A stretch of 64,000 nucleotides of DNA from Gammaproteobacteria bacterium. GTDB lineage: Bacteria > Pseudomonadota > Gammaproteobacteria > Pseudomonadales > Azotimanducaceae. A program made the position numbers and the translations under genes. Shown here one piece after another: positions 52,605-58,073 of the stretch. The notes beneath the pieces are model-generated. The model ran no database searches. It saw only the letters and a program-made list of their open reading frames with translations, and was not told the DNA's origin. Location of the stretch: positions 62,001 to 126,000 of the forward strand of contig NZGG01000037.1 of the NCBI GenBank assembly GCA_002690865.1, written 5' to 3'. The first letter of the stretch is position 1. Each line of letters opens with the position of its first letter.

Positions 52605-53222
52605 GTGTTTAATTTGAACATAAAAGAAAATATCGCTGCCATAATAGAAAAAGAAGCAAATGCTATGAAGGCAATTAATATCACAGATGCATTTGAAGAC
52701 GCTGTTAATGTCTTGTTTAAGTGCAAAGGTCGAATCGTTACTACTGGTATCGGTAAAGCAGGCTTCATGGCACACAAATTTGCCTCGACCCTTTCATCTA
52801 CTGGCACGCCGGCTTTTTTCGTGCATCCTGCGGAGGCTGGTCACGGAGACATGGGTATGATTGATAGGAATGACCTCATCGTCGCCTTCTCGACTAGCGG
52901 AAAATCCACTGAAGTAATTGAAATGCTTCAAATAGCCAAAGATCTCGGTATCCATGGAGTGATCGGCATTACATCACATGTAGAATCACCATTACGCGAA
53001 CTTAGCGAGATTATTCTTGATATGGGACCAGATATTGAAGAACCTTGCCCTCTAAACCTCACCCCAAGCGCCACTATCGCCGTTATGCTTGGAATTAGTG
53101 ATGCCCTTGCCTTGACTCTGATGGAGCTTCGAGGCTTTACCGCATCTGATTACGGTCAACGACATCACAGAGGGTATTTGGGAAGTATCACAAGAGCTAC
53201 ACAAAATTCTGAAGAATTTTAA
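52605..53222 (+). CDS. SIS-domain arabinose-5-phosphate isomerase (KpsF/GutQ/KdsD-like) lacking CBS domains
   Basis: 205 residues. The SIS sugar-phosphate isomerase domain is complete: TTGIGKAGFMAHKFAST, HPAEAGHGDMGM and FSTSGKSTEVIEML. It ends SDYGQRHHRGYLGS where KdsD has its FHPGG segment, and the C-terminal CBS pair of E. coli KdsD (328 residues) is absent. CBS-less arabinose-5-phosphate isomerases are known from Bacteroides. It makes A5P for Kdo of LPS. The start is GTG at 52605 (a TTG at 52614 is possible). Confidence 0.8.
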   Translation: MFNLNIKENIAAIIEKEANAMKAINITDAFEDAVNVLFKCKGRIVTTGIGKAGFMAHKFASTLSSTGTPAFFVHPAEAGHGDMGMIDRNDLIVAFSTSGKSTEVIEMLQIAKDLGIHGVIGITSHVESPLRELSEIILDMGPDIEEPCPLNLTPSATIAVMLGISDALALTLMELRGFTASDYGQRHHRGYLGSITRATQNSEEF

Positions 53223-53244: not shown

Positions 53245-54132
53245 ATGATTATTGATCCAGCAACAATTGCGCAAAAGTATATCAATGAAGTGTGCAAAGA
53301 AATCACGAGGAAAGAACTTAACATCAATATCTTAGGATTGATCGCAACAAAAGATAAACCATCCATCTCCTATGCAAAAGCTACACAAAAAAGATTTGCA
53401 GATGCTGGGATCAATTATGATTTACAACGTATTGAGCGTTTAGACCTTGAAAAAGCCATAGACGAAGCAAATAAAAACCCAACTATCCATGGAATCTTTA
53501 TTTATTTTCCAGTCTTCAATAATCAGCAAGATGATTACCTTCGCAATCAAGTTGATTACCATAAAGATATTGAAGCAGGCAGCCTTTATTGGACAAGAAA
53601 ACTCTATACTAATGATCGACTAGCCGGTCGTGATAGTATCCACAAAGCTCTCCTGCCTTGTACACCACTCGCAGTTGTAAAATTACTGACTGAAATAGGT
53701 CGGTATGATGGTCATCACAAACCACTAGAGCATAAAAAAGTTACGATATTTAATCGTAGCGAGGTAATTGGTAGGCCACTAGCAGTAATGATGTCAAATG
53801 ATGGCGCAGAAGTATATTCATTCGATGTCAACGGCCCCCTACTATTTGAGAACGCCAGAGCTTATGAAACTAAGATTACCCGCGCCGAAGCATTAAAAGA
53901 ATCACAAATAGTAATCACAGGCGTCCCGAACAGCGACTTTACTCTTATAAAATCAGAAGAAATTAGCGATGGTACAATCTGTGTAAATTTTTCCAGCCTC
54001 AATAATTTTGCGGATGATATTACAACCAAAGCAGATACTTTTGTTCCCAGAATCGGCCCAATGACTGTTGCAATGTGTATGAGAAATACATTGCGTATCT
54101 ACCAGAACTACCAGGAACAAACCAATGTCTAA
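53245..54132 (+). CDS. Methylenetetrahydrofolate dehydrogenase resembling monofunctional NAD-type MTD1
   Basis: 295-residue FolD-fold protein in the folate position. Canonical FolD has S-x-x-Y-x-x-x-K-x-K. Here the segment at 40-49 reads SISYAKATQK: Ser40 and Tyr43 stay, but the catalytic Lys is Thr47. The same Y-A-x-x-T-Q-K layout, FPVFNNQQDDYL (bacterial FolD has PLP here), LLPCTPLAVVKLL and FNRSEVIGRPLA are what I recall from yeast MTD1, which has dehydrogenase but no cyclohydrolase activity and uses NAD. The gene overlaps the cyclohydrolase-like gene that would supply the missing step. I infer a monofunctional dehydrogenase. Confidence 0.8.
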   Translation: MIIDPATIAQKYINEVCKEITRKELNINILGLIATKDKPSISYAKATQKRFADAGINYDLQRIERLDLEKAIDEANKNPTIHGIFIYFPVFNNQQDDYLRNQVDYHKDIEAGSLYWTRKLYTNDRLAGRDSIHKALLPCTPLAVVKLLTEIGRYDGHHKPLEHKKVTIFNRSEVIGRPLAVMMSNDGAEVYSFDVNGPLLFENARAYETKITRAEALKESQIVITGVPNSDFTLIKSEEISDGTICVNFSSLNNFADDITTKADTFVPRIGPMTVAMCMRNTLRIYQNYQEQTNV

Positions 54133-54709
54133 TCCTCTGTGCAACCTGACTATTAAAGATTACCTTGCAGCGCTCGCCTCAAAATCAGCCACTCCAGGCG
54201 GAGGCAGTGCTGCTGCCTTGACAGCGGCCCAAGGTGCATCTCTTCTCTCTATGGTTTGCCAATTCACCCAATCAAGTGATAAATCAATAATAGAGAGAGG
54301 AGAGGCATGTTTATCAACTTATACCAAGCTTTTGCTTCTAGCCCAAGAAGATGTAGATGCATTCAATAATGTGATCAAATGGTACAGCAATATTGAGAGC
54401 GACGATTATAGAAATGCCGTTAGACAAGCTATAGTGGTCTCTCTAAGTATAATGCGCGAGGCTAGCGAATTGGTGGATGCAGCAAAATATCTATCTGAAG
54501 CAGGAAATAAAAATCTCATTACTGATGTAGCTATCGGGGCGAACCTGCTCTCATCGGCTATAGAAAGTGCTTCTGTTAATATGTTGATTAACTGCAAATC
54601 GATACCAAATGAAGAATTATGTAAGAAATCAAAACAAGCATCGATTAGGTATCTCGAATCAAGCAATCAACTGCAGCAAGTTTACCTTTTAATTAAACAA
54701 AGGATTTAG
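54125..54709 (+). CDS. Cyclodeaminase/methenyl-THF cyclohydrolase (FchA/FTCD-C type)
   Basis: 194 residues of the formiminotransferase-cyclodeaminase fold. TPGGGSAAAL (23-32) is the folate-binding loop, followed by helical sequence. Stand-alone proteins of this type are methenyl-THF cyclohydrolases (FchA) in methylotrophs and formimino-THF cyclodeaminases elsewhere. No histidine-degradation gene is near, and the 8-bp overlap with the MTD1-like gene favours a cyclohydrolase role in methylene- to formyl-THF conversion. Formyl-THF is used by purN 3 kb on. Confidence 0.85.
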   Translation: MSNPLCNLTIKDYLAALASKSATPGGGSAAALTAAQGASLLSMVCQFTQSSDKSIIERGEACLSTYTKLLLLAQEDVDAFNNVIKWYSNIESDDYRNAVRQAIVVSLSIMREASELVDAAKYLSEAGNKNLITDVAIGANLLSSAIESASVNMLINCKSIPNEELCKKSKQASIRYLESSNQLQQVYLLIKQRI

Positions 54710-57470: not shown

Positions 57471-58073
57471 ATGAATCTCGGTGTTATCGCTTCAAATCGT
57501 GGGACTAACCTTCAAGCAATTGTTGATGCATGCAGAGAGAAAAGACTCGATGCAAAAGTTTCCGTAGCAATAAGCAATAACAGCAAATCACTTGCTATTC
57601 TTCGTGCTCGTAAAGCCGGTATCCCAGCCTTCCATATATCTGAGAAAACACACCCAAGCCCGTTAGATCTTGATCAAGCGATATTGAACATACTAAATAC
57701 TCATGATGTTGATTTTGTTGTTCTAGCTGGATACTTAAAGCATATGGGGAAAAAAACTTTGTTGGCCTTTCCCAAAAAAGTAATCAATATTCATCCATCC
57801 TTATTACCATCGTATGGCGGTAAAGGGATGTACGGGCGCAAAATACACGAAGCAGTACTTAAAAATAGAGATACCGAAACGGGTATCACAATTCACTATG
57901 TTGATGATGGCTATGATACCGGGGAAATCATTTCACAATTGCGTATACCCATCGATAGTTCAGATTCTGTCACTTCTTTAACGAATCGAATCTTAAAACA
58001 AGAACATGAGTTTTTAATCGCTACTTTAAACTGTTTGATTAGCAAGGAGCGCTCATGTCGGAACACGGTCTAA
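57471..58073 (+). CDS. purN: Phosphoribosylglycinamide formyltransferase
   Basis: Formyl-THF-dependent GAR transformylase, 200 residues. IASNRGTNLQAIVDAC opens the fold. The catalytic Asn-His-Asp set is in INIHPSLLPSYGGKGMYG and the later HYVDDGYDTGEII. A formyl-THF user, unlike the ATP/formate enzyme PurT. PurM, its usual partner, is not next to it. 48 bp after matB. The prs-like fragment overlaps its 3' end. Confidence 0.95.
   Translation: MNLGVIASNRGTNLQAIVDACREKRLDAKVSVAISNNSKSLAILRARKAGIPAFHISEKTHPSPLDLDQAILNILNTHDVDFVVLAGYLKHMGKKTLLAFPKKVINIHPSLLPSYGGKGMYGRKIHEAVLKNRDTETGITIHYVDDGYDTGEIISQLRIPIDSSDSVTSLTNRILKQEHEFLIATLNCLISKERSCRNTV

Follow-up and report, generated by a model that had tools for sequence, protein, structure and literature searches.

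Can two overlapping genes take over the work of FolD, a widespread housekeeping enzyme? The window analysed here, a stretch of 64,000 nucleotides from a gammaproteobacterium of the order Pseudomonadales, carries a gene for a FolD-fold protein resembling yeast MTD1, overlapped by a gene for a protein of the FTCD_C family. Very probably, the pair jointly replaces bifunctional FolD, with a monofunctional, probably NAD-dependent dehydrogenase on one side and a separate cyclohydrolase on the other. The MTD1-like protein, from which the Lys, Gln and Asp of FolD are missing, would oxidise 5,10-methylene-THF to 5,10-methenyl-THF. Its cofactor is most likely NAD+, and a useful cyclohydrolase activity is improbable. 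The FTCD_C protein would then hydrolyse methenyl-THF to 10-formyl-THF, to be used for purine synthesis and formyl-Met. What each enzyme does, which cofactor is used and which way the flux runs are inferred from sequence and genome comparisons.

The gene pair and its surroundings

The MTD1-like gene (positions 53245-54132, forward strand) begins with ATG and encodes 295 aa; the FTCD_C gene (54125-54709, forward strand), also with an ATG start, encodes 194 aa and a putative FchA-type methenyl-THF cyclohydrolase. They share 8 bp, ATGTCTAA (54125-54132, forward strand). A sequence-only reading of this DNA had placed both reading frames here and called them 'fused by overlap'; their position and the overlap of the neighbours are as described, but these are two separate overlapping genes and not a fusion, so that the wording was loose.

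A SIS-domain protein of the sugar-phosphate isomerase type (52605-53222, forward strand; Pfam PF01380, PDB 3etn) is encoded 22 bp upstream of the MTD1-like gene, and 42 of 46 gammaproteobacterial loci have such a gene directly 5' of the pair. A DUF885-type gene follows the pair in most gammaproteobacterial loci and is absent from that place in the window and in its nearest relative (L083); by Pfam, a PNPOx-domain gene lies downstream of the pair in the window, on the opposite strand. PurN, a consumer of 10-formyl-THF, is encoded near the pair and outside its overlapping run (57471-58073, forward strand; NCBIfam TIGR00639, 176.8 bits against a cut-off of 150.1).

An MTD1-type protein

Yeast MTD1 (PDB 1edz, 1ee9) is a monofunctional NAD-dependent methylene-THF dehydrogenase, and by sequence, tree and catalytic sites the product of the first gene is probably of this type, and not a bifunctional FolD. 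A Pfam scan with matches up to E 0.001 found PF00763 (58.9 bits) and PF02882 (56.9 bits), both above the curated cut-offs, and no MtdA-type domain. Compared with PDB sequences, the protein matches yeast MTD1 best (1edz, E 9.6e-56, 192 bits); the next match is the best FolD, at E 6.2e-13 and 52 bits, and identity to 11 FolDs is 23 to 27%. The structure predicted on the basis of an 18-sequence alignment, with a mean pLDDT of 91.4, has 1edz as its best Foldseek match (TM 0.91 by query length), and VIA-align gave Z 38.3 and rmsd 1.9 over 293 aligned residues for this entry, against Z 31.8 for the next. The FPVF and NRSEVIGRPLA blocks, which the sequence-only reading had likened to yeast MTD1, indeed align with FPVF and NRSEIVGRPLA there. 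Family models may mislead in such a case: among the best 25 of 30 NCBIfam families, the models matching the protein are all named bifunctional and none reaches its cut-off, the best FolD score being 69.7 against 423 bits.

In a tree of 63 dehydrogenases, which samples 42 of 76 distinct MTD1-like proteins, the window's among them, and 20 of 52 FolDs, none of these eukaryotic, and adds yeast MTD1, a branch with SH-aLRT 100 splits MTD1-like proteins from FolD, with yeast MTD1 on the MTD1-like side. The tree is a quick search without bootstrap, and yeast MTD1 and one FolD sit on long branches, which leaves the exact place of yeast MTD1 unsure. Sequence, tree and model agree in grouping the protein with yeast MTD1 and not with bifunctional FolD. 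L188, a FolD that has diverged strongly and forms a very long branch, comes from a Desulfuromonadales genome (G083) that also has an MTD1-like protein.

Catalytic and cofactor residues

In the portions of PMC6443876 and PMC3368264 available to us, Tyr52, Lys56, Gln100 and Asp125 of the human enzyme are assigned to binding and catalysis, with Lys56 assigned to both reactions in the latter. We aligned 76 MTD1-like proteins with 52 FolDs, the FolDs coming solely from loci returned by the searches; rows with identical last 230 residues were merged and FolDs below 270 aa dropped. The catalytic Tyr (Tyr43 here, Tyr53 in yeast) is kept in all aligned proteins of both kinds. The Lys56 site is Thr47 in the window's protein, as the sequence-only reading had it, and Thr57 in yeast MTD1; the larger alignment has Lys there in none of the 76 MTD1-like proteins (Thr in 65, Ala in 11) and in 52/52 FolDs. 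Two further catalytic sites, beyond those of the earlier reading, differ from FolD as well. Tyr87 stands at the Gln100 site (Tyr in 76/76 MTD1-like proteins, Gln in 52/52 FolDs) and Glu110 at the Asp125 site (Glu in 76/76, Asp in 52/52); yeast MTD1 has the same Thr, Tyr and Glu at the three sites. Ten of the 11 proteins with Ala belong to Chlorobiaceae loci without an adjacent Fch gene, and the remaining one (L019) to a pair genome of the OM182 family.

One may ask whether the MTD1-like protein is still bifunctional by way of its Thr, Tyr and Glu, with the FTCD_C protein merely assisting or speeding the second step. The fold, Tyr43 and Pro89 are retained, and one genome (G082) has an MTD1-like gene by itself. 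Nevertheless, we find this reading very improbable, as the Lys to which the accessible part of PMC3368264 assigns both reactions is missing in 76/76 MTD1-like proteins, and the other 47 of 48 genomes with an MTD1-like gene have either FolD or FTCD_C.

An acidic residue at the end of a Rossmann-fold strand such as that carrying Asp194 usually favours NAD over NADP. In the model, Asp194 ends a strand of the nucleotide domain, and it is present in 76/76 MTD1-like proteins and in yeast MTD1. FolDs are gapped at this column; by a pattern scan, 36/52 have His-Ser, His-Arg or His-Lys at this place, and His-Ser or His-Lys also occurs in 11 of the 12 non-matching FolDs listed. From this one invariant Asp, the MTD1-like protein probably prefers NAD, and its predicted output would be NADH.

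The FTCD_C protein

The sequence-only reading had assigned the neighbouring gene to the FchA/FTCD-C type, and this assignment holds: the protein matches PF04961 with 130.9 bits against a cut-off of 24.5 (E 5.5e-38), and the nearest PDB entries are T. maritima 1o5h, the closest, and 7vg4, which we take to come from M. extorquens. These entries are named formiminotetrahydrofolate cyclodeaminase (1o5h) and methenyltetrahydrofolate cyclohydrolase (7vg4). With 95.3 bits the protein does not reach the cut-off of the NCBIfam FchA equivalog (NF045657, 275 bits), and we therefore describe it as FchA-like and do not file it as an FchA equivalog. Nine residues (P24-G27, D76, N128, D134, N152 and N156) are present in 55/55 OM182 and Chlorobi rows of the alignment, in 1o5h, and in nine strong FTCD_C rows (L201-L208 and 7vg4) except for one row at N128. 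'OM182-type' is a group label taken from record titles, several gammaproteobacterial records being titled OM182 or K189A clade. Six loci (L209-L214), five of them from the window's own order, form a divergent FTCD_C set that lacks several of the invariants.

For the window's FTCD_C protein, the name of the closest structure, 1o5h, would suit a formimino-THF cyclodeaminase of histidine or purine breakdown, placed beside the dehydrogenase by chance. We hold this to be most unlikely. The formiminotransferase domain PF02971 was not found in 28/28 pair genomes, which leaves such an enzyme with no known source of substrate, and it is on this ground that the cyclodeaminase role was rejected; moreover, among 107 genomes FTCD_C is confined to those with an MTD1-like gene and without canonical FolD.

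Mutual exclusion with FolD

A cyclohydrolase function of the FTCD_C protein is in keeping with the way in which these genes are distributed. The host genome (2.42 Mb in 46 contigs, rated 99% complete) contains a single PF00763 protein, and a hidden second folD was rejected since no further FolD-family gene was found; profile searches found neither a second FTCD_C nor FTHFS (fhs) in it. The sequence-only reading had proposed a genome-wide search for a second folD or fhs, and neither turned up; its other two grounds for refutation, a place with FolD in a tree and a catalytic Lys in a better alignment, did not hold either. The same PF00763 domain was present in 12 of 14 control genomes. As neither a formate-THF ligase nor a further FolD-family gene was found, 10-formyl-THF would, as far as the searched families go, be reached through the pair alone.

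The comparison covered 107 genomes, namely 78 from the window's surroundings (its own and 77 from relatives within its genus, family or order) and 29 behind 30 non-gammaproteobacterial loci. An MTD1-like protein at E <1e-100 occurs in 19 of the 78, FTCD_C in the same 19 and in 0/59 near relatives without MTD1-like. A further PF00763 protein is missing from all 19, against at least one PF00763 protein in 55 of the 59 others. The remaining four (G021, G025, G050, G061) have no FolD-family gene and no FTCD_C; FTHFS is present in G025 alone, and G061 is rated 98% complete. In the set of 29, which carries no completeness ratings, nine genomes have FTCD_C, all without canonical FolD, and in one of them (G090) both MTD1-like and FTCD_C are present twice; canonical FolD is present in 19 of the 20 without FTCD_C. 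The exception is G082 (L130), a Desulfuromonadales metagenome bin that has FTHFS along with its MTD1-like gene and lacks both canonical FolD and FTCD_C, where an incomplete bin with a missing contig or an unrecognised cyclohydrolase is a possible explanation.

Overall, canonical FolD is found in 0/28 genomes with both MTD1-like and FTCD_C and in 19/20 with MTD1-like and without FTCD_C, so that 47/48 MTD1-like genomes have one or the other. This either-or pattern backs the earlier proposal of a neighbour that makes up for the missing cyclohydrolase step. Relatedness among the genomes reduces the independent basis of the exclusion from 28 cases to about two replacement events; a Fisher test that pooled related genomes was set aside.

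If the pair worked mainly as a reductive route for the uptake of formate-derived carbon, like that of acetogens, this would fit the gene adjacency, which is like that of the acetogen fchA-folD cluster. FTHFS, though, is missing from the window's genome and was not found in 26 of the 28 pair genomes (it is present in G027 and G029), leaving no known entry for formate there, and we regard a mainly reductive role as very unlikely.

Relation to known systems

MtdA/Fch pairs are known in methylotrophs, for example Methylobacterium extorquens, where MtdA, of another dehydrogenase family, gives NADPH. As in those pairs, dehydrogenase and Fch are separate here and the window's Fch is homologous to 7vg4; in contrast to MtdA, the window's dehydrogenase carries the FolD-family domains PF00763/PF02882. 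With bifunctional FolD it shares the fold and the Pfam domains, but Lys, Gln and Asp are replaced and it falls on the opposite side of the tree. Yeast MTD1 is the nearest by sequence and model, and agrees with the window's protein at four diagnostic sites (T47, Y87, E110 and D194), whereas the window's gene is bacterial and overlaps an FTCD_C gene. In yeast, the cyclohydrolase step is supplied by other folate enzymes. The accessible part of PMC11064299 describes ADE3 and MIS1 as trifunctional and treats MTD1 as a fungal FolD-family gene that is difficult to place; it gives MTD1 'only cyclohydrolase function', against the titles of papers cited there, and the words Fch and MtdA are absent from that part.

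Among acetogens, 13 of 14 have fchA according to the available portion of PMC5039349. In what is accessible of PMC10472528, Acetobacterium woodii has a cluster fhs1-fchA-folD, and the title of a 1984 paper cited there makes its methylene-THF dehydrogenase NAD-dependent. A separate FchA beside a methylene-THF dehydrogenase, NAD-dependent in A. woodii, is common to both arrangements, while the acetogen cluster differs in its Wood-Ljungdahl setting and in having fhs in the same cluster in A. woodii. The sequence-only reading, sound in the main, had seen in the pair a different solution from that of the methylotrophs; this stands for the MTD1-type dehydrogenase but not for the split and the use of NAD, both of which are known in A. 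woodii. What sets the pair apart would be the MTD1-type dehydrogenase as partner. In the literature searched, which included few subscription papers, no title or abstract start described a bacterial MTD1, an MTD1/Fch pair, a replacement of FolD, or the one-carbon genes of OM182 or Chlorobaculum.

The 28 pair genomes amount to a natural experiment, in which the loss of FolD together with a separate cyclohydrolase suggests which activity the MTD1-like protein lacks. A central folate pathway can apparently be rebuilt from different parts in some marine and green sulfur bacteria, and predicted redox bookkeeping would change for the uncultured marine bacteria that have the pair and for Chlorobaculum. 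Bacterial relatives of yeast MTD1 also provide material on the evolution of NAD use and of monofunctionality.

Distribution and evolution

A collection scan with two short patterns, which favours close relatives and gives an incomplete list of lineages, returned 76 loci, many from genomes already counted. By record title they come from Gammaproteobacteria or Pseudomonadales, from Desulfuromonadales and from Chlorobiaceae, among the last Chlorobaculum thiosulfatiphilum DSM 249. An FTCD_C sequence lies directly 3' in 46/46 gammaproteobacterial loci, truncated in L105 where the contig ends and short in L115. Ten of the other 30 loci also have it in this place, and these ten are all from Chlorobi. 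The genes stay adjacent even in relatives whose MTD1-like protein has only about 55% identity, which makes chance adjacency unlikely; with FTCD_C following in all 46 gammaproteobacterial loci, it was ruled out.

In a wider draw of Pseudomonadota, an MTD1-like protein at E 1e-40 was found in 0/397 genomes besides the window's, and FTCD_C above its cut-off in 16/398, the window's included; six of the other 15 are from the window's order, and the five of these six that were aligned belong to the divergent set. FTCD_C is therefore not tied to MTD1-like, and the count of 0/59 is valid for the searched near relatives alone.

In a tree of the MTD1-like proteins, Fch-bearing Chlorobi nest (support 80 to 84) among Chlorobiaceae without Fch and with FolD. 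On the simplest reading, the MTD1-like gene would first have stood beside FolD, Fch would then have been gained, and FolD lost last. The Fch tree (71 rows, many long branches) places Chlorobi (support 100) apart from OM182 (90), and Fch was apparently recruited twice, with the OM182-type and Chlorobaculum-type pairs assembled separately. One may speculate further that MTD1 is an old, cross-domain, NAD-specific subfamily with OM182-type, Desulfuromonadales and Chlorobiaceae branches, in which two independent recruitments of FTCD_C, with loss of FolD, would twice have switched the output from NADPH to NADH; this broader model could equally well prove right or wrong. That the pair took the place of folD within the folD locus itself was rejected: the SIS neighbour accompanies 16 of 19 MTD1-like genes and was seen at 0/60 FolD loci, scanned over about 1.5 kb per side.
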